Counted from the stretch's first letter, positions 49,537-64,000 are shown. The stretch is DNA of 64,000 nt from Candidatus Thorarchaeota archaeon (GCA_029855935.1 JAGSHN010000027.1:121348-185347); one strand, 5' to 3'. Numbers and translations are program-made. Notes: generated from the letters alone by a model not told the origin.

Positions 49537-52500
49537 CTATTCCAGCTCGTCAAGATGCCGGCTATCGTCATCGCCCCCGTCGTCTGCCAATTTGTCAATG
49601 CTGTCATCCCAGTCCACTGGCAGACGTGACAGGGCCACGTTCATCCTATTTCGGACTACGACTCCGAGGAGAGTAATCATAGGAATACTGATGAAGACAG
49701 GCAATGGGGTAAGGCCGATTCCCAAGCTGGACCCCATTGTGCTCACGGCCACGCTCACCGAATTTGCCACGTCCCCGAGGACAGGAACATCTTCGATTGT
49801 GACATCTATGATGTATTCGCCCTCCGTTGGCGGTGAGAATGTTACAGGCAGCAGTGAACTGGATTCGATTGTTCGATCAAGAGTCTTGAGCAAAGAGCCG
49901 TCCGGACCAAAGATTGCCACCTGAAGACTAGTGTTCCACCCGGGTGCAACACCCGCGATCTCGATTGAGAGAGACACTCTCATCTCTTGGCCTGCAAAGG
50001 CGTTCTCAACACTGAGGACTTCAACTGTGACAGTGGGGCGGACCACAACCTCCATAGTCTCAGTGGTCGAGTTGAAGTCGTCAGATCCCGCATACTCCAC
50101 GCTCACAGTCAGTACGCCTGCCACAGGAGGATAGAACTCCGTCCGCACCGTACCAGTGATATCGGTCTCCTCCGTCAGGACAATCTCATCGCCATACTGG
50201 GGCCGGACCCTAATGACCAGCGTCGCACTGCCGATTCCTCCAAGCGGGCCCCTCAGTCGTGCAGAGACGGGAATGCTGGTCCCGAACTCAGACTCTGCGG
50301 GAATATCGACTTCCATCTCGGTGAGATATCGCACCCGCAGCACGACAGAGAGATTTGCCTGACTGTAGTAGCTGGTGCCGGAGAACACTGCCGTGAGAGT
50401 GTACTCTCCCGGCGTCCCAGGAGTCCACGTGATGTCAGCCTCCTCAATGTCAGTCAGGTTGAAGTCCAAGCCCGAGGTCAACACTCCACCAAGCAACTGC
50501 CGACCATCAGGGTCGAAGACACTCACCGTCAAATGGCCAGCCCACACGGTCGCGTTGAGGAGATCGTGGACCGCTATGACAACTTCGTGCTGCCAACCCA
50601 CAATACCCGGGAGATCCGACTCCAGCAGACAGAGGGCCGTTTCTGCAGTGACTGTGAAGTCTAGGGTGGCGGTTGAGCCCAGCCGCAGACTGGAACCGGG
50701 TACCGTGACGAGGAGGCTGTAGTCTCCAACATCGAGACCGCGAAGGCTCAGCTCTACACAGGTCTCATTGAGTATCAAGCGGGATGTCACATTCACAGGG
50801 TCCAATCCCCGCAGAAGTGTCACCGTCAGGCCAACCTCTGTGGGACCGAGAGGCACGCGGGACTCATCATAGACTCGAATCACAATCTCCTCGTCAGTAG
50901 AGCGGTGAATCGCCGTGGGTCCCGTTATCTCGGGAGAAGTGGTTCCCATCACGAACACCTCGACCACCGTGCTCGCCGGATGGTAGTGATCTGTGCCGTC
51001 AAAGACTATGAAGAGAGAGTAGTTGCCCATTAGCGGAAACTCGATTGTGAGGTTCTCCGGCGTGGTCCCGGACTGCACGAGGGCTCCCTCGATAAGCAGT
51101 CCCCTACTCTGATGATAGGCGAGATACCTCATCGTGAATCCCTCAAGAACTCCGCCATCGAGGTCGGTGAGCAGCAGGCTGAGCCTCAGTGGCACATCAC
51201 CCGCAACCACCTGCTCCTCTGAGATGTCGACCAGAACGACTCTCACCCCGAAGCGCACATCGATGGTTCTCTCCGCAGAGTCGGCAAGATACACTCCAAG
51301 GCCCTCGAAAGTGACCACAAAGTGCCACTCGCCCTCAGAGAGAAGCACCTGTTCCCACCTGCAGTACCCTGTCGCATTCGTTGCAACCGTCTCAGAGATC
51401 GTCGAACCGTCAGGGCCCTGGGCGAGGAAGGTGATGTTGCTTCCGCTCATTGGTGTGCCCGTGTGATCCAGAAGAAGTACTACGGCGCTCAGCGTGTCAC
51501 CCACCTCAAGATCGTCCGTGATGGACAGGATGGTCAGGTTTGTACGCGAATAGGCAATCCACTGACTGCTGAACGAGAAGGAATGAACGTATCTTGAGCC
51601 GGACGAGTCGACAAGCACAGTGTACAGACCGGGTTCGCTCACGGTGGTATCCACGGTCGCAATCCCGTCCACGGTCGTGATGGTCACGGCGTCCGACCAA
51701 GTGCCGAGTCGGACAGGGTCGCCGTACGGGTCGAGAAGCGAGATTGTCACGGACAGACCGTCAATCGCCCCGCCCAGCTCGTCATAGAGGTGGACATTCA
51801 GAACAACAGGCTCGGTAGCACAGGGCGGTTCGGGACTCACGACAACGTTCACTGTGGCGTCAGTCATCACGGTCAGCTGCTGCTGTACGTCGCCGCCCAA
51901 CATGTACTGGTCATCCGCAGGACCAGCCCGAGCAACGAGCGGGCCCACTGCCATGTCGACAGTGACCATTGCCGACACGTACCCGGTGCTGTTCGTGGTC
52001 AGTGATGAGGACCACACCGGAACGAGGTCTACTCCAAGCAGTTCGACCAACACCGTGATGCCCGCGCAGTCTGCGGCGTCCAGCCTATACGTGAGGTCGA
52101 CCGAGTCTGCGAACTCTATGCTCTCGGAGGACAGTATGAGCTGGCCATCTACAATCTCCATCACCGAGACCGACGCAGAGGAGGAGTTCTGATGATAGTA
52201 ATCATCGCCCAGATGCATTGCGATCACTGTGATTCGACCCCGCAAGTTCAGCACCCACTCGACCACGACAGGAACATTGGAGGTCACAATTGTCTCTTCG
52301 TGGAGAGACACTCCGTCCTGCTCAAACCGCACACTCACATTCCTTCCCACAACGGGATCACCGACCTCGTCGGTGACATAGACGCTGACGCGCAGTGTGT
52401 CGTTTGAATAGGAGGAGATGGGTGCCTCAAGGAACACGTCGGGGACACAGTATATCCTCAGGGGGATGCTGGTCTGGGAGGCGGCATTTGTATCATCTCC

Positions 52501-55500
52501 TGAGAACGTGACATTGATGACAAAATCGCCAACAGTACTCATCTCGAAGAGGAATGAAACACTACCGTCCTGCGCAGTCTGTCCAGTGGAGGACAGGTAC
52601 AGCGTGCCATTCGACCACAGAATCTCTGTGCGAATGGTGGCACCTACGAGCGCAGAGTCCCTCCAGTCCGTCAGAACGACGAGAATACCGACCGTCGAGT
52701 TCTGCAGGACAGGTGCCTGAGGTGCGTCAACAGAGAGGGTCGTGATCCCCAGCACATGTACGTTGGCCGAGCTCTTGGAGGCACTGAGGTAGCCCTGGGC
52801 TGGCACGGAGATGTTGACCTGCAACTCGCCAGGATGGGTGAGATTGAGTCCAACCAAGATGGTGCCTGTTGGGTCTGTCACATTGTCGGCCTTGAGTATG
52901 AGGGTAGCATCAAGATGCACCTCAATCTCCACAGTGCAATTTGAGATTGCCTCACCAAGACTGTCAGTCAGAGAAACACTTACGGTGGAGCGGCCTGGTG
53001 CAACGGGATTCTTGGGCATATCAATCATCATTGCAGCCGTGTCGGACACCGCAATCGAGGTGTTCGTCATAGAGGAGGCGTACCAGCCCTGCTGAGGTAT
53101 GACCACAACAACTGCGGCCTCACCGCGCTGACCGGGTGTCCAATTGGCCCTGGCGATGCCCGAGTCCGTGACCAAGAGTGCTGCCACCTCGGCAACACCA
53201 CTCGGTCCCGTCACGGTGACGTTGGTCTGAAGCTGGTCAACTGGGTCTCCCAGGTTGTCCTCTACTGTCACCACGATGATGGATATCTCTCCCACAGAGG
53301 GTGCTGGGTCGACAGTGATCGTGACAGTCAGGGGGATGTACACACTGACAATGGATGATGTCGACGATGGCCCGAGCGAGGGTGAGCCCGCGTAGGAGCC
53401 CGCAACCTCGTATTGTCCCGCTGTCTCAGTCGACCACACAAATGTGGCCACGCCATTGTCATCTGTCGTGACGTCTGTCTCAAGGACGACAGTGGAGGGG
53501 AGGAACGTGACCGTCACGTGAATGATCTGACCAACCACCCGCACACCTGCAGTGTCGGTGAGATTGAATCGAGTCGTGAGCGTGTCGGTCACGAGTGCCT
53601 CCCCGGGAAGACCTGTCGCCGTCAGGGTGGTGACTGAATACGACGTGAACTCGGAGGAGTTGGAGGCCTTGGTGTAGTAGTCTTCGCCTCCAAACTCCGC
53701 TGAGAACACGTACTGGCCATTCTCGCCTAGATATGCTGTGATGGAGGCCAGTCCCAGCTCATTGGTTCTCAGGGGGGCGACCACTACAGTCTGGGAGCTG
53801 GGCGAGACAAGCTTGAGGGTGATGTCGAGGCCAGAGACTACCCCTCCTGAGGAGTCTCTAATGCGCACCTCTAGCGTCACGTTAGTGTACTGATCGTACT
53901 GCCCTGCATTTAGCATCTCGATGACGACTGGTTCCTCCACTACGATCTGGCCGCTCGTCTCTGACGGGGCAAGACTCCGGTTTCCATCGAACGTTATGGT
54001 GAAGTTGTAGACACCTCTTTCCCCCGGCGTCCACACGAATGCACCTGTTCGGTCGTCGGCCGAATAGACGGGCGAACCATTGGAGTCTGTGATTGTGATG
54101 TGAACCCATTGCCCAGAGAGAGCTGAGTCGTTGGCCAAGACTCGTAGTGTCCAGTTCACTGACACAGCGTCGCCCAAGAGGGTCGTGAGGTTCGACAAGG
54201 TCTCAACATAGGTGGGCTCCGGCTCAAACAGCTCAAGCCAATCTGACAGTATGAGGGAGTCACAGTAAGGTCGCTCAAGGAGCACCGACAGGTTGTATCG
54301 TCCGGCCGTCAGATTGTCAGTGGGTAGACTCAGCACGAGAGGCGACGCATTGCAATAGGACCACTGGTGAGCGCCGTCGGCTCCGGTGAGTGACACCGTT
54401 GCATTCGTTGTTCCAGCTGGCCGGCCAGTCGTGAGCTCCCAGCTCACAAGACCTGTTATCGGGCTGCCGATGCGATAGTCGTGTCTATCGAGAGCCATCT
54501 CGCCCGTGAGCGTACCGTTGACTGTCGTCTCCAGGCGACTAGTTGCCCAGATGGCACCATAGTCCTCCACCCGTAGATACAGCACTGCCGGTCCGAGATC
54601 ATCAGCGTCGTCCGGGACGTGGATGACCAGATTGTCCTTCGGACTCACGTTCCCAAATGACGACCATTGCCCGAACGCATAGAGAACAACGGTGGAGTTG
54701 CCCGGGCTTGACGAGATTGATACATTGATGTCCGCAGTGGATCCTAGATGAACGACTGTTTCGACAACTGCTGAGAGCGACCGGGGGTCTGGCTCCCACG
54801 CCTTGACCCGAAGACCCAGTACCGAGAGCATCCGCGAGATGATGCTGGTGTACAGTGGCTGGTATAGGATTGTCGCGTTGAACCACCCTGTGTCCTTCAT
54901 CGACGGACCAAGAGATGAGAGGGCCGCATCGGGGTCAATCACGCTGGCGACGTCAATGGAGATTAGCCCAGAGGATGCCAGCAGTCCCACAGTCAATGAG
55001 TCGAACCCGACTGCCAGAAGGTCGGAGTAGTTGATGCGTGCTTGGATTGTGGAGATAATCTGTGAGGCCATACTGCTGTTCAGGAGACCCAGTCGTAGGG
55101 CCGCCCGGGTCGACAGGTAGTCTATGGCCTGAGGGACTCGACAATACGGACGAAGGGTCCAACCGTCCCGCGACCAGTAGCCATCGCGATACTCTGCCAG
55201 TACGGCTGCTCTCAGCTCATCGGGATAGGGAATCTTCGACAATGAGCCCATCAGGTACAGCGTCTCGACTGCTGCAACAGAGTATTGCATATGAGCGGGA
55301 CCGGGCAGACGTGCATTCCTGAAGTGGCCATCGGCGCTCTGCGAGCCGGTGAGATAGTCAATCACATCAGATCTCTCAGCGGCAGTCAGCTCACGATACA
55401 GATGGTATGACGACTCCACACCAAAGTACTGTGTCCACACGCTCTTCATTCGAAACTGGCTCGGCGAGAACTCGGGTGAGGCGAGGAAGGACATGTTGGA

Positions 55501-57552
55501 GGAGCTCGGATACTCGCTCCAACTCGAGAATGAGTCGAGGAAACTGAAGATGGCCTGGGTATCGACAATCCTGCCTGCGTGCGTGTATCTGCCAAGCTGC
55601 GTCATCCAGTACGTGTTCATCAGCGAGGGCACGCATTCCATCACCTCGAAGCCAGCCTCGGTCTCCACGGAGTTCACGTAGGTGATTATTCCGTCTCTGA
55701 GTAGAGCATCGTCCGCCCCAGTCTCATTGAGGGCCATTGCAACATACGACGTGTCAAGCGTCTTGGCTACCAGGTCGCTTGTCATCGATCCGAGGCCAAA
55801 GCCGCCCGACGCAAGCTGGTTCGCACGGAACCACTCGATGGCGGCCGTCCTGTTTGAGGGCGACAGAGTTCCCATAACAGACATCGCAGTGATGGCCGAT
55901 GCCGTCCCCACTGTCACCTCAACACCCGGATTCATGGTGTCACTGAACGATCCGTCACCCTCGGAGGTCTGGGAGAGTATCCAGTCCGTGAGTTTCGCCG
56001 GGTCGTTGTGGGATGTGCCGAGTATCTGCAAGGAGAGAACAAGCGCACGTGCGTACGAGTTCTTTGGCGTGATTGACGAGGGATTCTGTGCGACACCACC
56101 CCACCGCTCCGGCTCGCTTGTCTTGCTCCCATCGATCACGCAGTCTCGTAGCCAGGACTCAGCAGCAGCTGTGTCAATCTTGTTGAGCGCGCTGGCTGCC
56201 CTGAGCGCCTCCAACACGCAATGAGTAGTCAGTATGTCACTCCCGAAGCCGCCGTCAACATCCTGACGAGATGAGATGTACGAGATGATTGAGTTGACAT
56301 CAAAGCGGTCGGTGAGAGAGAGGAGCTGAATCAGGTAGAGGCCACGAGATGCGCTCAACACGTCAGCTGCTGTGTCAGCCTGTGTGGGAGCAAACCCGGT
56401 CTCAGATGCCCCCGACACAGTCATCGACTGGAGCAACGCAGCAATCGAGTCCTGGTGATTGCTGAGCCACACCGTCCAGTTGATGTCGGACAAGCTGGAA
56501 CGCATTGCGCGCACAGAGTAGTACAGGGCCTCCATTGTGGCCTCGTGCGGATAGAACATACCGCCCTCAGGCTCCCGTCCAAGTACCTGCCACTCGCTGA
56601 GTCTCTGCGCAGTAGACGACTCAGCAATTGAGGCCGCAAGGGATATCACATTGATGGTGAGGTTCTGGCCCGAGGACGTGAGGTAGTCCGGATTTTCCAT
56701 GGCAAGGAGGAACGTGTCCAGCGGCTGGGAGTCATGCCTTAGTGGTGCGAGCAGAGCCGGATCACTGCTGCCAGTGAGATTGACAAGTCGGGACTCCTCA
56801 GTCTGCACTGCATCCACGGGAAGCCGTAGACTGGCCTCGGATGTCAGTTCCGACGGAACATCGACTTTGTTGGGCCAAGAAAGGAAGACAGCGTCCTCAA
56901 GACCTGGAGTAGTGTTGTATACCCACGTCTCGGCCAATGCCGTTTCCAGTGGGGGAGCAAGACCCTGCAGCCGATGCTCCAGCCACGCCGCACGGCCCAG
57001 AAGGACTATAGGCAGATCGGCCCTCACAAGATTGTCGAGCACGGTCTGAGAGAGCTCGCTGCCATTGCCGGACCCTGTGCTGGGGTCGAGAACGACTACT
57101 GCACCGGAGTCCAGCAGTGATGCGTTCGCCTCGATCTGCGAGTCAGTCACGACTCGGCTGACAATCCCGGAGCCCTCTATGAGAGACGCCCACGCCACTG
57201 CACGTGAGACAACGTCTCCACCCACGTGCTCAACAACAAGACACACACGACCATCAAAAGGCACAGGGGGTTCGGCGCTGGGACTGTAGGAACCATCCCT
57301 GAGAGGCCCTATCTGGGTGGAACGTACCGATGACGAGTCCGTGATTGGCCACATTGGGCCCCGCCCTCCGCCCAGGGCGCTCACGCAGATCAGTGACAGA
57401 AGCAGCACCACGCCCAGCAGGCGTACGGGGCCGGATGCGCGCCGAACAATGTTGGGTGAGGGTCTCCGGGACCGGCTCTGATGGCCGGGAAGCATCCGTG
57501 GGTGTGGTCTTCGAGACCGGTCCCGGATTTGGTTGAGTGTTGATTCTGTCAT
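49537..57552 (-). CDS. giant secreted/surface protein: N-terminal GATase-like region, alpha-toroid repeats, many Ig-like domains, C-terminal TM
   Basis: N-terminal hydrophobic anchor; repeats such as RQDVDGGFGSD...CVLEALRAAS and NQLASGGFGLGS resemble prenyltransferase/squalene-cyclase toroids; long series of ~95-aa beta-sandwich repeats (VTVVDxxGxPVxGxxVxVxxxxPxG); C-terminal VFISIPMITLLGVVVRNR. Confidence 0.88.
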   Translation of the reverse strand: MTESTLNQIRDRSRRPHPRMLPGHQSRSRRPSPNIVRRASGPVRLLGVVLLLSLICVSALGGGRGPMWPITDSSSVRSTQIGPLRDGSYSPSAEPPVPFDGRVCLVVEHVGGDVVSRAVAWASLIEGSGIVSRVVTDSQIEANASLLDSGAVVVLDPSTGSGNGSELSQTVLDNLVRADLPIVLLGRAAWLEHRLQGLAPPLETALAETWVYNTTPGLEDAVFLSWPNKVDVPSELTSEASLRLPVDAVQTEESRLVNLTGSSDPALLAPLRHDSQPLDTFLLAMENPDYLTSSGQNLTINVISLAASIAESSTAQRLSEWQVLGREPEGGMFYPHEATMEALYYSVRAMRSSLSDINWTVWLSNHQDSIAALLQSMTVSGASETGFAPTQADTAADVLSASRGLYLIQLLSLTDRFDVNSIISYISSRQDVDGGFGSDILTTHCVLEALRAASALNKIDTAAAESWLRDCVIDGSKTSEPERWGGVAQNPSSITPKNSYARALVLSLQILGTSHNDPAKLTDWILSQTSEGDGSFSDTMNPGVEVTVGTASAITAMSVMGTLSPSNRTAAIEWFRANQLASGGFGLGSMTSDLVAKTLDTSYVAMALNETGADDALLRDGIITYVNSVETEAGFEVMECVPSLMNTYWMTQLGRYTHAGRIVDTQAIFSFLDSFSSWSEYPSSSNMSFLASPEFSPSQFRMKSVWTQYFGVESSYHLYRELTAAERSDVIDYLTGSQSADGHFRNARLPGPAHMQYSVAAVETLYLMGSLSKIPYPDELRAAVLAEYRDGYWSRDGWTLRPYCRVPQAIDYLSTRAALRLGLLNSSMASQIISTIQARINYSDLLAVGFDSLTVGLLASSGLISIDVASVIDPDAALSSLGPSMKDTGWFNATILYQPLYTSIISRMLSVLGLRVKAWEPDPRSLSAVVETVVHLGSTADINVSISSSPGNSTVVLYAFGQWSSFGNVSPKDNLVIHVPDDADDLGPAVLYLRVEDYGAIWATSRLETTVNGTLTGEMALDRHDYRIGSPITGLVSWELTTGRPAGTTNATVSLTGADGAHQWSYCNASPLVLSLPTDNLTAGRYNLSVLLERPYCDSLILSDWLELFEPEPTYVETLSNLTTLLGDAVSVNWTLRVLANDSALSGQWVHITITDSNGSPVYSADDRTGAFVWTPGERGVYNFTITFDGNRSLAPSETSGQIVVEEPVVIEMLNAGQYDQYTNVTLEVRIRDSSGGVVSGLDITLKLVSPSSQTVVVAPLRTNELGLASITAYLGENGQYVFSAEFGGEDYYTKASNSSEFTSYSVTTLTATGLPGEALVTDTLTTRFNLTDTAGVRVVGQIIHVTVTFLPSTVVLETDVTTDDNGVATFVWSTETAGQYEVAGSYAGSPSLGPSSTSSIVSVYIPLTVTITVDPAPSVGEISIIVVTVEDNLGDPVDQLQTNVTVTGPSGVAEVAALLVTDSGIARANWTPGQRGEAAVVVVIPQQGWYASSMTNTSIAVSDTAAMMIDMPKNPVAPGRSTVSVSLTDSLGEAISNCTVEIEVHLDATLILKADNVTDPTGTILVGLNLTHPGELQVNISVPAQGYLSASKSSANVHVLGITTLSVDAPQAPVLQNSTVGILVVLTDWRDSALVGATIRTEILWSNGTLYLSSTGQTAQDGSVSFLFEMSTVGDFVINVTFSGDDTNAASQTSIPLRIYCVPDVFLEAPISSYSNDTLRVSVYVTDEVGDPVVGRNVSVRFEQDGVSLHEETIVTSNVPVVVEWVLNLRGRITVIAMHLGDDYYHQNSSSASVSVMEIVDGQLILSSESIEFADSVDLTYRLDAADCAGITVLVELLGVDLVPVWSSSLTTNSTGYVSAMVTVDMAVGPLVARAGPADDQYMLGGDVQQQLTVMTDATVNVVVSPEPPCATEPVVLNVHLYDELGGAIDGLSVTISLLDPYGDPVRLGTWSDAVTITTVDGIATVDTTVSEPGLYTVLVDSSGSRYVHSFSFSSQWIAYSRTNLTILSITDDLEVGDTLSAVVLLLDHTGTPMSGSNITFLAQGPDGSTISETVATNATGYCRWEQVLLSEGEWHFVVTFEGLGVYLADSAERTIDVRFGVRVVLVDISEEQVVAGDVPLRLSLLLTDLDGGVLEGFTMRYLAYHQSRGLLIEGALVQSGTTPENLTIEFPLMGNYSLFIVFDGTDHYHPASTVVEVFVMGTTSPEITGPTAIHRSTDEEIVIRVYDESRVPLGPTEVGLTVTLLRGLDPVNVTSRLILNETCVELSLRGLDVGDYSLLVTVPGSSLRLGSTATLDFTVTAETALCLLESDLPGIVGWQHEVVIAVHDLLNATVWAGHLTVSVFDPDGRQLLGGVLTSGLDFNLTDIEEADITWTPGTPGEYTLTAVFSGTSYYSQANLSVVLRVRYLTEMEVDIPAESEFGTSIPVSARLRGPLGGIGSATLVIRVRPQYGDEIVLTEETDITGTVRTEFYPPVAGVLTVSVEYAGSDDFNSTTETMEVVVRPTVTVEVLSVENAFAGQEMRVSLSIEIAGVAPGWNTSLQVAIFGPDGSLLKTLDRTIESSSLLPVTFSPPTEGEYIIDVTIEDVPVLGDVANSVSVAVSTMGSSLGIGLTPLPVFISIPMITLLGVVVRNRMNVALSRLPVDWDDSIDKLADDGGDDDSRHLDELE

Positions 57553-58155
57553 CTAGACGAGCACCCCCAGAGCGCGGATGTACACGACCGCAACGAGAAG
57601 CGAGACAATTCCCAGCTCGACCGTACCACTTCGAGGATGACTCTGCAATGATGTCCTGAGCAGGTTGAGGTCCCCGCCACGGACACAGGAATTGAGAAGG
57701 ATTGCAAGGCCAAGGTACCACGCAGCGGCAACGAGAGGCGCCGCCATCTCGACGATCGTGGTCACTATGAGTAGCATCATTCCTGCGTACACGGAGAGGG
57801 TGAGCGTAACGAGCAGAGCGACGACCACAACGCCAACCCGGGGCGGACGTTCAACAACGACATATGGATTGAACTCCAAGAACGTCGTGTCAAGTCCGAT
57901 GTCCCCGAGCTCGATGCCCATCAAGCGTGACACGGCATATCTGATGGCAATTGTCGCAGCCATTCCAGGAGCCGTCAGCCATGAGAAGACCGATAGCCAG
58001 CGACTCCGTGTCCACGTGGCGAACGATCTCTTGCGACCGCTGAGAAGCAGGAGGCTTCTGACAATTGAGGCCACGGCCACGATGATGGGCATCAGGACAA
58101 ATGCAAGGATGAAGGTACCGACCAGCATTGTCGATATGTTAACGCCCACCATCAT
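57553..58155 (-). CDS. multi-TM membrane protein, unknown
   Basis: About 5 hydrophobic segments; its TAG stop directly abuts the ATG of the giant gene. Confidence 0.7.
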   Translation of the reverse strand: MMVGVNISTMLVGTFILAFVLMPIIVAVASIVRSLLLLSGRKRSFATWTRSRWLSVFSWLTAPGMAATIAIRYAVSRLMGIELGDIGLDTTFLEFNPYVVVERPPRVGVVVVALLVTLTLSVYAGMMLLIVTTIVEMAAPLVAAAWYLGLAILLNSCVRGGDLNLLRTSLQSHPRSGTVELGIVSLLVAVVYIRALGVLV

Positions 58156-58380
58156 ACATTCATCTCGCTACTCTGTCACAGAAGCGATTGAGCAGTCTGC
58201 AATGAAAGACTTGACTCACACTCATCGTGAGCAGGCATAGTCCCCCATCTTCCAGAAACGACAGGCATAGATGCATAACAGTCTTGCCAAGTGATAACAG
58301 CTCGAATTCTTCGGGATACATTTATTGGAGGAGCGCGCCACCAAGTTCTCTGCAAGTATGACCAGGAGAGGTCGGAGAGT

Positions 58381-60231
58381 ATGGCCCCTTCAGTGACGCC
58401 ATCAACAGCGGGATGGATACAGCCAGGCCAGATGCATTCGGACCGTGCCATCTACAGGACGATTGCACTTCTGACAGGGCGGTCAAGGGAGATGGGTGCG
58501 ACTGATGCTGAGGTGTTTGAAACAACACACTGCAGGCTCCGTTGGGAGGAGGACGATGTCAGTCCAGACATGCTCAGGTGGCGACTTGGGAGCGAGCGCG
58601 TGACGCAGCGGTTCCGGGGACCAGAACGACCACTGCAGCCGAGGGGATCGACCCTGAGAGAACGGGTCATGTCACTACTACCAACCACTATGGAACCCAC
58701 AGAGGCAACGAGCGTGGCACTCAGCCTTGGACACATCGCGGCAGAGGACATCACTCCTGTAGGTAGAATAGCCTATGACGGGCTTGACCTGCTGGCCAAT
58801 GCCCTCGTTGTCATCTCTGGGGCTGCCAGGTCCATCGGAGCACGGGTTGCTTGGCTTGAGGGAGTCTGGGAGTACTACGTTCAACGTGCAGTCAGAAACG
58901 CGACGAAGGACCTCCAGGCACTACCGGATGGAGTAGCCGTCCGTGACCTCGTCGAGAGGATCAACTCCCACGTGGAGAGACTGACTCAGGATGCACCCAA
59001 CCACCCGACTGTGGCTCTGTTGACGAGTTGGAGGGGCCTGCTCACGTCATATTCTTCGAGAGAGCAGGTCCCCGACCATATACGAGCGAAAATCCGTGCC
59101 AGTGCTCGTGAGGCACTGCGTAGACAAGAGGTACGGCTCGTCGAGTGGGCGTCCCCCACACCAAGAGTGGACTCCATCGTGTTGATACAACACGACCCCC
59201 TTGTCCGCACCTTGAGGGAGAACATCTGCGTCCTCAGAGATAGGCGCGTCCTCAGCCTGCTGAAGCTATTGAGAGGAGTGACTGACCCACACAGACCAAC
59301 TCAGCATGATGTAATTGAGGCCACAGGGCTGGCGCGATCAAATGCCATCAGATGGTCATCGCAAATCGCGCCCTATCTATCGCGGGGATGCGTATTGTCG
59401 GTGGAACGCCTTGGGCTGCAGTACAGATACGTCATCTCGCGTCGTGGCTACACGCGTCGCACAACCTCTCCGACCGTGGCGAAGATGGTCGCGACAAGAG
59501 GACGTCATGTGAACGTATTGCTTGAGGCGGGCAGCGAAGAATCCGATCAGGAACGAGAGAGAGAGGGCTTCGCAGTCAACCGCGAGACGCTTACAATGAA
59601 CCTTGGCGCGTTTGACCCAGACACTGGGGACTGGCGAGACCCGTGGTCGAGAACTCGGGCCTCACGCAACGAGGATACAATCATCACTGCATCCACCACC
59701 ACGGGTGAGAGGATTGAGCCCATTGGTCCCGCCACACTGGCTGCCCTATCTCTGCTGTGGTCCCAGACCGCATTCAAGAGATACTTCGACTGGCTGGTGG
59801 GCGTTGTCGGCCCCTCACGCAGTACGATATCGTCGACCTACAAGAGAATTGTAGCCGAAGGACTTGCGTCCTTTGTGTATCTTCCGGACATAGAGTACGT
59901 GTCCCTACCAGAGGCCCTGCTGGTCGCAGCCCGGGGATTGACTCCTTCAGAGTCGCAAAAGGCCAGCGCGTGGCTGGCCAGGACGTGCCCCTTCGTCCGG
60001 GTGCTGACAGGAGAGAGGAAGGACGGTCGCAGAAGGATGACAATTGTCGCTGAGGCCAGATTGCCGAGAGAGTCTGCTGGTGTGATAGCCGGGGCCGTTG
60101 CCCAGAAACTTGGCCAAATGAGCGATGATGTTGTTGTAGAGAGGATTCGCCGTTACAAGACATATCGCTACTCAGCATTGTTCAGGTCGTACAACGCGCG
60201 AACAAAGACCTTCGGCCAGAGAAGGAGGTAG
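58381..60231 (+). CDS. large hypothetical protein with winged-helix-like regions
   Basis: HTH-like GPSRSTISSTYKRIVAEGL and PTQHDVIEATGLARSNAIRWSSQI. ATG 58381 preferred over the listed 58291. Confidence 0.65.
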   Translation: MAPSVTPSTAGWIQPGQMHSDRAIYRTIALLTGRSREMGATDAEVFETTHCRLRWEEDDVSPDMLRWRLGSERVTQRFRGPERPLQPRGSTLRERVMSLLPTTMEPTEATSVALSLGHIAAEDITPVGRIAYDGLDLLANALVVISGAARSIGARVAWLEGVWEYYVQRAVRNATKDLQALPDGVAVRDLVERINSHVERLTQDAPNHPTVALLTSWRGLLTSYSSREQVPDHIRAKIRASAREALRRQEVRLVEWASPTPRVDSIVLIQHDPLVRTLRENICVLRDRRVLSLLKLLRGVTDPHRPTQHDVIEATGLARSNAIRWSSQIAPYLSRGCVLSVERLGLQYRYVISRRGYTRRTTSPTVAKMVATRGRHVNVLLEAGSEESDQEREREGFAVNRETLTMNLGAFDPDTGDWRDPWSRTRASRNEDTIITASTTTGERIEPIGPATLAALSLLWSQTAFKRYFDWLVGVVGPSRSTISSTYKRIVAEGLASFVYLPDIEYVSLPEALLVAARGLTPSESQKASAWLARTCPFVRVLTGERKDGRRRMTIVAEARLPRESAGVIAGAVAQKLGQMSDDVVVERIRRYKTYRYSALFRSYNARTKTFGQRRR

Positions 60232-60236
60232 TGCTC

Positions 60237-61214
60237 TCAGAGCCACTTCTCAAGCGAGATCTGCTGCAGCCGGAAGGCCTTCCACAATGGCACAGCCTCA
60301 TCCGCCACCTCCTCGGCGAGCGACTGTCCAATCGCTGGCGTGAGAACACGGACCAGACGCGGGCGCAGTGGATACCTCGGTGCAATATCGAGCCCTCGGA
60401 CATCAATAGTGTCCACCTCGTCAAAGACACGCCGTGCCTCCAAGAACGGCTTGCGTTCCGCGGCGTTTAGGCCTCTTGAACGAAGAGCGTTCTCAAGGTC
60501 GCCGTGTCTGCGAAGCAGGGCCATCCCGTGATGAGGACCGACGCCTCTGAGTCCGTCGTGAAAGTCGCATCCCATCAGTATGGCAAGATCACGCAGCTGA
60601 CAGAGAGTGAGGCCCGTGACCCTTAGTGTGTCAGAGAGCGTCGTCCTGAGGATCTGACCGCTGTACAGTGCCAGCTGGCGTGTGAGGTGAGGGGTACCGA
60701 ACAGGAGGGCATCCGCGTCATTAGATACGACAGTGAGCACGCGACCGGCGCGACAGAGAGCAGCTGCGAGAAGCTCAGCCTCCGATGGAGCAACCACCGT
60801 CGGTATCCCAAAGGCCGCTGCAATGTCTCTGACGTGGGCCAATGCGAAGTAGCCATAGAGTGCAGGGCTCTCCTTCAGCCGACCGGCAAGCACGGGGTCC
60901 TCGGGATCCTTGTCCCTCTGGAACCTCTCATAGAGGCCATTGGCCTCGCGTATCAGATCAGGATTTGGTGCCCGTTTCAATACCTCCGGTGGCCCATCGA
61001 ACACCAAGACAGGAAGGACGTGCCTGCGCAGAGTCGCACGGATGATGTTCAGAATCACCCTGACATGTGAGGTCGGTACTCTCTCACTGCCACGCCGAGG
61101 TATCGCCAACATCCGTCTCAGTAGGTAGTTGGGAGTGTCGACCGCAATTGCGCCTGCAATCTCAGAGACATCGGACCACAGCCACGGAACAAAGTTGAAA
61201 CGAGCAACACCCAA
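60237..61214 (-). CDS. XPG/FEN1-like structure-specific nuclease
   Basis: AVDTPNYLLRRML, LVFDGPPEVLK, GIPTVVAPSEAELLAA, VSNDADALLFG, GCDFHDGLRGVGP; C-terminal QISLEKWL. Confidence 0.85.
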   Translation of the reverse strand: MGVARFNFVPWLWSDVSEIAGAIAVDTPNYLLRRMLAIPRRGSERVPTSHVRVILNIIRATLRRHVLPVLVFDGPPEVLKRAPNPDLIREANGLYERFQRDKDPEDPVLAGRLKESPALYGYFALAHVRDIAAAFGIPTVVAPSEAELLAAALCRAGRVLTVVSNDADALLFGTPHLTRQLALYSGQILRTTLSDTLRVTGLTLCQLRDLAILMGCDFHDGLRGVGPHHGMALLRRHGDLENALRSRGLNAAERKPFLEARRVFDEVDTIDVRGLDIAPRYPLRPRLVRVLTPAIGQSLAEEVADEAVPLWKAFRLQQISLEKWL

Positions 61215-61217
61215 GGC

Positions 61218-61962
61218 TCACTCACCAATCCCTATCTCAAAGATCCCGGAGGAGGTAACGCGAATCACAACGGCCTCGTGGGACACGCCGAAGGAGGACT
61301 TCTCGACCGCAAGGCGAACGAGGCCGCCGCTCTGCGACACCCTCACTGCACTCACAATCGTGTCGACGGCGTGGGCAAGGGTCAGCCCACCGAGGGGTAG
61401 AAGTGTCCTGTTCGACCAGTCGACCACACTGTGGTCCAACAACAGGAGGTGGACGGCCGAGCTGGAGACATCGGACCTGACACGTGAAATGGCGTCAAAC
61501 AGCTGGCGCTGACGCGTGCGCGTCGCCGGAGTTGTGCTCAGATTCAGGACTCCTGCCAGACTGTCAACGACTATGAGTGCAACATCGTCCCTTTGACAAC
61601 CGCGGGTCACCAGCTCCTCAAAGTCTGACAGCGACAGCACCCGTCCGATGGCCATCCTACTCAACAGGTCGTCAGATTGGAGGTCAGATGGCGCTATTCG
61701 TCGCACCAGTCTCGGAGAGAAGCTGAGTCCCGAGTCGAGATAGATGACGGTGGAGGGCCTTGCCGCAGCGGCAACGGCGATGTGGTGAGCGAGGACTGAG
61801 AGAATAGCACGCGAGTCGCCGTGTAGCACACTGATCTCGCCTGGGACGAGCAGACGACCCAGAAAGCGGTCGAGCAACGGTGGCTCGAGCGTGATGCGCG
61901 GACCGAGGTCTTCGGCAATCTCTGTGAGTGGAACCCTCTCAATATCATCTCTCAGTGAGAAA
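61218..61962 (-). CDS. RecA-fold protein with degenerate Walker A (start codon uncertain)
   Basis: LLVPGEISVLHGDSRAILSVLAHHIA in the Walker A position, VALIVVDSLAGVLN as Walker B, ...LTLAHAVDTIVSAVRV. The ORF is open up to 62162, but that overlaps the upstream gene; boundary given is approximate. Confidence 0.65.
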
Positions 61963-62799
61963 CACCTCCATCGACTGTCCCTGCCGTAGCGCTTCGGAGA
62001 TGCGTAGGGCTGGGACCTCCAGAGCCAACGACGGCGCAGCGACATCAACCGGAACAGCCACAACAGCCATCGAGGAGGATACGGAAACGATGCTACCCGC
62101 GGGACGCGCCTCAAGCACACTCGACACAAACTGAGGATCACCAGACACGACATAACTCCCACTTGGTCCCCCAGTCCGTAGCACGGGCAGCTCCCACAGT
62201 ATCGCTCTCAGATCAGGCGGACAACCAAAGACCCCGGGCTGACGGGAGAGGATGTCGGCTCGGCTGGAGAGAACTGCGACAAAGTTCTCGGCCGTCACAA
62301 TGGTCAGTGGCACTAGGTCATCCTCTTCAAGTAGCGCAGGGAGGACTGCAGCATCGTCGCTCTGCACTAGAACTATTCGCCGTCCAACCCCCGTGTGAAC
62401 TGGTCCATCCTTGACCCGGGAGGAACGAACTCTCTGTACCGACTGTCTGCCGAACAGTGTAAGCGAGCGAAGCCCACGAGATATTCCATCGGGTCCAGCC
62501 CTGCTCACCATCCGCAACAGCGCAAGCGTGAGAAACATTCCTCCGAGGGCAGGGAGGGCCCCCATATCGAGGAGAATGAAGAAGACCAGCAATGACACGT
62601 ATAGACTGCTCACAGTGGCGATGACCCCGACAACTCTCTGAAGCCTCGGCCTCATAGAGAGTGTGCCAGACATCAGCGTGAGAACGAAGATGGGAACGGC
62701 AGTCAAGATGAACGGGCCCCATGCCCCGACACGAGCAGACAGGGCGACCACCGTGAGCCAGCGGAAGAGTGGTATGCCCACCACAAGGAACACGACCAC
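61945..62799 (-). CDS. membrane protein with cytosolic C-terminal domain, unknown
   Basis: About 4 N-terminal hydrophobic segments then a soluble alpha/beta-like region. Confidence 0.65.
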   Translation of the reverse strand: MVVFLVVGIPLFRWLTVVALSARVGAWGPFILTAVPIFVLTLMSGTLSMRPRLQRVVGVIATVSSLYVSLLVFFILLDMGALPALGGMFLTLALLRMVSRAGPDGISRGLRSLTLFGRQSVQRVRSSRVKDGPVHTGVGRRIVLVQSDDAAVLPALLEEDDLVPLTIVTAENFVAVLSSRADILSRQPGVFGCPPDLRAILWELPVLRTGGPSGSYVVSGDPQFVSSVLEARPAGSIVSVSSSMAVVAVPVDVAAPSLALEVPALRISEALRQGQSMEVFLTER

Positions 62800-62847
62800 A
62801 GCAACCGTCAGTCTGACGATCTGCCGAATAGGTAGTCCAAGCAGTAT

Positions 62848-63519
62848 CTACACCCCCTGGAAAGGTTCGTGCGGACGCATCAACTCAATCTCGAAATAGC
62901 TCCCGGCCGTGTGGTGCAGCCGCGCAATTGTGCGCGTTGGCTTCCCGTCCTCACAGAGAAGAAGGTCGGACACCCCACGTCGGGAAGACCTTCGCATGAG
63001 TACGTCCCAGTCACAGTACCTCCGGATGACGCTGTGGTGAACTGCATCCACAAGACTCTCCTTGACCAGCCTACTCTCACTGATCACTATGATGTTGGTC
63101 CCGCGGGACAACCTGACAGCGGCCAAGAGAGGCATAGTCTCCTCTAGCATCTCTCGTCCCCACATCACAGGGTCATTCCGGGCCATATCGAGGACGCGAG
63201 TGACCGGGTCGATGACCACAAGCTCTGTGTCAGGACCCAGGCTATGAGGCAATGCCCTCACCCACTTCACCGCCCTGCCGTGGTCCGATGTTACCGAGAC
63301 CGCCACATGCGATGGATCTCCGCCGTGACGCGCAACGGCTGCCTGGAGAAGACGCACGGAGGCTCGCTTTCCGTCTAGTGAGTACCACTCGACCAGCCCT
63401 CGACGTGATGCCGCAGCTGCCACAGCACAGGCAAAGATTGTCTTTCCTGTTGCTGGGAGCCCCCAGACGTGAACAAGGCCCTCCAAGCCCATCTGATCGA
63501 GCGACACCGCAGAGACCAT
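62848..63519 (-). CDS. RecA/RadA-superfamily ATPase (RadB/KaiC-like size)
   Basis: VHVWGLPATGKTIFACAVA (Walker A), TELVVIDPVTRVLD (Walker B). ATG at 63519 (MVSAVSLDQ) chosen. Confidence 0.8.
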   Translation of the reverse strand: MVSAVSLDQMGLEGLVHVWGLPATGKTIFACAVAAAASRRGLVEWYSLDGKRASVRLLQAAVARHGGDPSHVAVSVTSDHGRAVKWVRALPHSLGPDTELVVIDPVTRVLDMARNDPVMWGREMLEETMPLLAAVRLSRGTNIIVISESRLVKESLVDAVHHSVIRRYCDWDVLMRRSSRRGVSDLLLCEDGKPTRTIARLHHTAGSYFEIELMRPHEPFQGV

Positions 63520-63523
63520 CCCA

Positions 63524-64000
63524 TCATCCCCCTTCCCGTTTTCTCGTCTCGTTCTTCTCCCGCCCCGGTTCTGAAGACACGGAATTGGCTGCCGCCACAC
63601 TCTCAGACGGGCTGTCCGAGCCGAGCATTCGAAGCACAGCGAGTTCCTCCTCGGTCTGTACGCTGTCCCTCTCCGTGCCAAGAGATGACCCTGAGATCGA
63701 CTCCTCTGAGTCCGTATCATCGGCAGGTGTCTCCTCACCAAGCTCGCGAGAGAGTCTCTGAGCAGTGTATTCCATTGCCCACGCGTTCAGTATGTCGTCG
63801 ACCTCTTCCTTCGCGTCCGGTCCGAGGACACCCATATCAAATAGCGCGTTGGCGAGAGTACCGAGATGCTCAGCAATCTCATCCTCTCCGATGTCTTCAC
63901 TCAGTGAGGCGGATGTCAGTGCCACGTATGCGTGTGCCAGCTGGGCGCGGTCGAAGTGGGGGACAAGCACATCGAAGAGCCCGAGGAAGACGCCCAGTCC
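63524..64000 (-). CDS. hypothetical protein (5' part beyond window end)
   Basis: Frame remains open to the window edge (GLGVFLGLFDVLVPHFDRAQL...); acidic/Ser-rich C-terminal tail; stop 4 nt before the RecA-fold ATPase start. Confidence 0.6.
   Translation of the reverse strand, partial: GLGVFLGLFDVLVPHFDRAQLAHAYVALTSASLSEDIGEDEIAEHLGTLANALFDMGVLGPDAKEEVDDILNAWAMEYTAQRLSRELGEETPADDTDSEESISGSSLGTERDSVQTEEELAVLRMLGSDSPSESVAAANSVSSEPGREKNETRKREGG

Follow-up and report, generated by a model that had tools for sequence, protein, structure and literature searches.

Genes at the locus

The window, i.e. the whole stretch of 64,000 nucleotides that was analysed (G000:C4:121348-185347), ends at base 64000 together with its contig. 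Positions 60237-64000 are filled on the minus strand by five tightly packed genes (Table 1). An earlier reading made without database searches (the sequence-only reading) had described an XPG/FEN1-like nuclease, two RecA-fold proteins of which one lacks Walker A, a polytopic membrane protein and a 5′-most gene cut by the window end. The packing and the truncation were confirmed, as were the nuclease, the membrane protein with its four predicted TM helices and cytosolic alpha/beta domain, and the RecA-fold pair, in which Walker A is missing from the RadB-like protein and present in the protein encoded upstream. The 5′-most gene can now be assigned to a protein with two TM segments, c5, whose C-terminal part it encodes within the window. 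As a correction, the starts of two genes had been listed too early. The RadB-like ORF had been called at 61218-62162, but alignments put the start of its domain near 61943, where no ATG, GTG or TTG was seen in the correct frame. Alignments also moved the start of the small ATPase from 63741 to an ATG at 63519, which is its most likely start and gives a protein of 223 aa.

Table 1. Genes in the window that belong to the operon or lie next to it
Gene	Position	Strand	Description
XPG/FEN1-family nuclease paralog	60237..61214	-	Last operon gene
RadB/Rad51-like protein	61218..61943	-	Degenerate Walker A (HGDSRAIL), Walker B kept (VVDSLAG)
Mem, membrane protein	61945..62799	-	Four TM helices and cytosolic alpha/beta domain (from the model of a relative)
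Small RecA-fold ATPase (RadB/KaiC-like)	62848..63519	-	Walker A (GLPATGKT) and Walker B both intact
c5, C-terminal part	63524..64000	-	Two-TM protein of about 490-600 aa; rest on G000:C10 (L136)
c4, convergent conserved neighbour	58291..60231	+	646 aa, no Pfam match; outside the system
c6, conserved neighbour	57553..58155	-	200 aa with four hydrophobic segments; uncertain whether linked to the system
c7, conserved neighbour	49537..57552	-	Long extracellular-type protein of 2671 aa; uncertain whether linked to the system

In most Thorarchaeota loci, the XPG gene is followed by a relative of c6. The c7 relative at locus L065, in a genome of the same genus, has hydrophobic segments at its N- and C-terminus, and c7 might serve at the cell surface or in adhesion.

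Extent of the operon

The five window genes are the 3′ end of a co-directional operon of about 15 genes that is conserved across Asgard archaea. At L065 the operon order is c14, c15, RadA-like, the Zn-ribbon protein c8, c9, XPD-like, c11, c12, the VirB4/HerA-like protein HerAl, Hel308-like, c5, ATPase, Mem, RadB-like and XPG. In the genome under study, the operon genes up to c5 were found at the end of contig C10, which stops within c5; c12 is absent from the ORF calls on this contig. The window contig C4 likewise ends within c5 and shares an exact overlap of 27 bases with the end of C10 in the same reading direction. Since C10 ends in the same gene with this overlap, the operon continues for about ten more genes, and the two contig ends are almost certainly contiguous. 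What looked like an odd set of five genes in the sequence-only reading is now read as the tail of a much larger operon with RadA, XPD, Hel308 and VirB4/HerA paralogs, and hence as part of a recombination system found throughout Asgard archaea.

Just upstream of the operon, an Mre11-like metallophosphoesterase and a short Rad50/RecF-like ATPase are encoded on the minus strand of C10 (L136:286-2668). A similar phosphoesterase precedes the operon at L065.

The nuclease and the RecA-fold proteins

The nuclease is a clear member of the XPG superfamily (PF00867, 64.5 bits), as had been read from the sequence, and it reached 111.7 bits against the FEN1 equivalog model TIGR03674, a third of the cut-off of 351.95. 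The catalytic acids D26, D73, E145, E147, D166, D168 and D217 are invariant in 9/9 cluster XPG proteins. Most Thorarchaeota copies end in a PIP-like motif of the form Q-x-x-[LM]-x-x-[WF], which in the window protein reads QISLEKWL. In a tree, cluster XPG proteins were split from canonical FEN1 with a support of 99/97, the tree being unrooted with some long branches.

The RadB-like protein scored 48.7 bits against TIGR02237, where the cut-off for the RadB equivalog is 172.4. A Walker A motif of the form GxxxxGK[ST] was found in none of 27 RadB-like proteins from different families, nor in any of 32 HerAl proteins from different Asgard families. RadA-like proteins, XPD-like proteins and the small ATPase keep Walker A, and their catalytic residues are intact. 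XPD-like proteins also have conserved cysteines where an iron-sulphur cluster is expected, and Hel308-like proteins keep the DExH/Q motif and motif VI; by a simple motif search, the standard Walker A pattern was missing in most of the latter. The RadB-like and HerAl proteins, which uniformly lack Walker A, are therefore two conserved proteins predicted to be pseudo-ATPases, and they are encoded in one cluster with ATPases predicted to be active.

Membrane proteins and the VirB4/HerA-like protein

HerAl, which is 784 aa long at L065, has an N-terminal TM hairpin and an ATPase fold that lacks Walker A. By sequence, only weak matches to HerA were obtained. In Foldseek, a structural model of HerAl (pLDDT 79.5) matched VirB4/TrwK from the R388 T4SS with an E of 4e-14 and HerA from Sulfolobus with an E of 7e-14, and it reached a TMt of 0.65 with a VirB4 C-domain. 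The model makes assignment to the VirB4/HerA fold class secure; a closer placement is not secure, with whole-chain TM-scores of about 0.3, as expected of a multidomain model. The protein c11 has two TM segments and resembles the N-terminal half of HerAl, a likeness seen via HerN proteins. In family f2 (L154-L155, L156), HerAl occurs as proteins of about 1270-1340 aa, the copy of G053 has several TM segments, and some genomes carry more than one HerAl. A modelled relative of Mem (pLDDT 82.8) found no match in a PDB fold search, and c5 found none in a PDB sequence search.

Divergence from the housekeeping copies

Canonical RadA (C16:7340), Hel308 (C17:114899), XPD (C14:151595) and FEN1 (C14:45335) are encoded elsewhere in the same genome, as is a HerA-type gene outside the operon (C17:31047). 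Cluster Hel308 proteins did not group with canonical Hel308 (NF040935), the split being supported at 100/100. In an unrooted RadA tree, the cluster copies fell outside the canonical group, with the exception of a long-branched copy from G043. By these sequence comparisons, the RadA, XPD, Hel308 and FEN1/XPG genes of the cluster are dedicated divergent paralogs, separate from the housekeeping copies. The trees would allow the cluster copies to have arisen once but do not prove it, as the splits are unrooted and some branches are long.

Conservation and distribution

Most of the genomes compared were draft metagenome assemblies. The XPG paralog was present at full length in 19 of 36 same-family genomes besides the one under study, and adjoined the RadB-like gene in each. 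The order XPD-like, c11, c12, HerAl, Hel308-like, c5, ATPase, Mem, RadB-like, XPG was fixed, as far as contigs reach, in 20 named assemblies with titles of Thorarchaeota, Lokiarchaeota or 'archaeon'. Some of these loci are cut by contig ends. The same order in 20 assemblies makes chance implausible. Co-conservation in relatives, on which the sequence-only reading had made its proposal depend, was thus borne out both in same-family genomes and in the named assemblies. The single-contig Thorarchaeota genome G024 (77% complete) contained only the half from Hel308-like to XPG and no HerAl, indicating that the second half of the operon may work alone.

HerAl was detected (E<=1e-6) in 107/232 genomes and 38/63 genera of the phylum, the weaker matches to proteins of about 1270 aa in f2 needing care. 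Clusters were read directly in families f12, f10, f5, f24, f23, f2, f8, f7 and f13. In about nine other Asgard families, clusters contained differing subsets of the RadA-like, VirB4/HerA-like, Hel308-like, ATPase and XPG genes; several non-Thorarchaeota clusters had RadA-like, HerAl, Hel308-like, ATPase and XPG on one contig, and RadA-like, Hel308-like and HerAl lay within about 20-31 kb of each other in G053:C35, G206:C11 and G130:C106. The f12 order of Hel308-like, Zn-ribbon, ATPase, four-TM protein and XPG mirrors that of Thorarchaeota. HerAl gave weak partial matches in 2/6 non-Asgard genomes searched (E about 3e-5 to 5e-5), a small control which does not exclude the system outside Asgard archaea.

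Among the clusters outside Thorarchaeota, an XPD-like gene was seen only in one of family f8 (L165, G043:C286), together with RadA-like and HerAl. In f12 clusters, a membrane protein of 878 aa with a Peptidase_M28 domain is encoded between the RadA-like and HerA-like genes (L143:5677-8313) and has a relative in G052; small-GTPase-like and roadblock-like genes follow XPG in f12 genomes (L143:18502-19999, L137:1209-3106). Woesearchaeota loci that had been found via XPG similarity were rejected, being FEN1-like genes without the cluster which grouped with FEN1 in the tree.

Proposed function and alternatives

The sequence-only reading had proposed a membrane-associated module for DNA processing, uptake or defence, or a divergent repair complex. 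Processing, uptake and repair fit the data, while defence is not supported. We tentatively favour a homologous-recombination machine anchored in the membrane, which most likely takes in or exchanges DNA and then recombines it, in analogy to the Ced and Ted import systems but without their defining features. The gene set with its order and conservation, the paralogy to housekeeping copies, the states of the active sites and the fold classes are observed, whereas the assembly of the proteins into a single complex and the import or exchange of DNA are inferred. HerAl, c11 as the homologue of its N-domain, c5 and the four-TM Mem would form a platform at the membrane. DNA would reach this platform, most likely by import or by exchange between cells, and the Hel308-like and XPD-like helicases would unwind and remodel it. 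Pairing with the chromosome would fall to the RadA paralog, aided by the RadB-like protein without Walker A and by the small RecA-fold ATPase, while the XPG nuclease would trim 5′ flaps and bind PCNA through the PIP-like motif at its C-terminus. Since HerAl is without the usual ATP-binding lysine, the import motor would have to be another subunit. This speaks against the reading, as does G024, in which only the second half of the operon is present.

The main and serious rival is a membrane-tethered repair centre that acts solely on the cell's own chromosome, at broken DNA or stalled forks, without any import; we regard this as possible, if somewhat doubtful. Every enzyme of the cluster is of a repair, recombination or fork-processing type, the XPG protein keeps a tail that resembles a PCNA-binding motif, and in the genome under study the Mre11-like and Rad50/RecF-like genes lie just upstream. 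Such a centre would also agree with what speaks against the import reading, namely that no VirB6/CedA-like channel was recognised (with Mem and c5 lacking PDB matches by fold and by sequence, respectively) and no VirB2/CedA1-like pilin (the small TM proteins of non-Thorarchaeota clusters having been read by eye only). It leaves unexplained, however, the need for an entire second set of RadA, XPD, Hel308 and FEN1, as well as the presence of a VirB4-like N-domain anchored by TM segments and of three or more further TM proteins.

The remaining readings fare much worse. Defence against viruses or plasmids, with incoming DNA degraded or remodelled at the membrane, might be suggested by the occurrence of HerA-fold proteins and helicases in defence systems, and the Foldseek matches included SIR2-HerA and DUF4297-HerA. 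It is nevertheless improbable, as PADLOC returned generic helicase matches (HamB, typeIV DinG) with no system-specific model and nothing for XPG, RadB-like, Mem, ATPase, RadA-like, HerAl or c5, and the cluster keeps a stable gene order and stable flanks across 20 assemblies, unlike typical defence islands. A transfer and recombination module of an integrated mobile element, which the VirB4-like fold and the full set of recombination enzymes could recall, is very improbable and already disfavoured, as c4 and c6 flank most of the Thorarchaeota loci and deep, well-supported splits separate cluster XPG and Hel308 from canonical proteins; none of the genes scanned was recognised as an integrase, relaxase or replication gene. 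That housekeeping fen1 and radB simply lie beside unrelated genes would have been unremarkable, FEN1 and RadB being common archaeal genes. This reading is refuted, because the XPG gene is not the genome's only fen1, as the sequence-only reading had allowed it might be, the RadB equivalog score was missed by far and the neighbourhood is conserved across families.

Asgard archaea are the closest known relatives of eukaryotes, and we know of no route of DNA exchange in them. If the exchange reading is extended to the origin of the group, the cluster would encode an ancestral machine that exchanged and recombined DNA at the membrane before Asgard archaea diversified or early in that process, using a complete second enzyme set and a VirB4/HerA platform without an ATP-binding motif. 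We consider this unlikely on present evidence but, if it were true, part of the recombination machinery would already have been specialised for genetic exchange at eukaryogenesis. The timing of specialised recombinases before eukaryotic sex is debated (PMC12722695). For this question as for Asgard DNA exchange the cluster provides a concrete gene set, and it accounts for extra copies of RadA, Hel308, XPD and FEN1 that would otherwise be annotated as redundant housekeeping genes.

Comparison with known systems

The sequence-only reading had found no nameable locus that the genes would fit, and indeed the genes departed in a defining feature from every known system with which they were compared. 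To our knowledge, no system joins these component families, and no description of the cluster was found in the open-access literature on Asgard or Thorarchaeota recombination enzymes, VirB4, DNA import and competence. The XPG protein shares with FEN1 the catalytic acids, the XPG N and I regions and the C-terminal PIP-like motif, but belongs to a separate, deeply split paralog group, canonical FEN1 being another gene of the same genome. RadB and the aRadC-type RadA paralogs resemble the RadB-like protein in the RadA/RadB core fold (by sequence), in Walker B and in a motif of the type GGNVLAHAVDS; unlike these, the RadB-like protein lacks Walker A in all 27 copies and is located in the cluster.

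Two RadA clades have been described in some Asgard lineages, in a study from which long-branch sequences were removed (Matsuo et al. 2025, PMC12722695) and in which no operon or gene context was found. The second clade and the cluster RadA are alike in being extra RadA copies in Asgard genomes. However, f12 genomes carry two canonical-type RadA proteins besides the cluster copy, which therefore seems to represent an additional type of greater divergence.

The HerA-NurA-Mre11-Rad50 operon likewise combines a HerA-fold protein with repair genes, and Mre11-like and Rad50/RecF-like genes precede the operon in the genome under study. In the cluster, by contrast, the HerA-like protein is membrane-anchored and without Walker A, Hel308, XPD, RadA and FEN1 paralogs are present, and Pfam scans of the operon genes gave no match to NurA.

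The archaeal DNA import systems Ced (CedA, CedA1, CedB, CedD) and Ted (TedA, TedB, TedC) rely on a VirB4/HerA-fold ATPase in the membrane together with a channel and a pilin, and are sometimes adjoined by recombination genes (PMC9905601, PMC11868833); Ted loci carry HerA and Rad50 genes (PMC9905601). As in these systems and in T4SSs, the cluster has a VirB4/HerA-fold protein with a membrane anchor, identified by Foldseek and by its TM segment. The N-domain is split or duplicated between c11 and the N-terminal half of HerAl, as CedB and CedD span different parts of the VirB4 N-domain (PMC11868833), and recombination genes are near by. The cluster differs in that its VirB4/HerA-like subunit is not an active VirB4-type ATPase by its motifs and in that the recombination enzymes lie inside the operon itself. 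The component families are thus all known and the novelty is their assembly, with FEN1, RadB, Ced/Ted/T4SS, HerA-NurA and defence systems each having failed a tested feature; if the import reading is right, the cluster could count as a far variant of the archaeal DNA-exchange systems.
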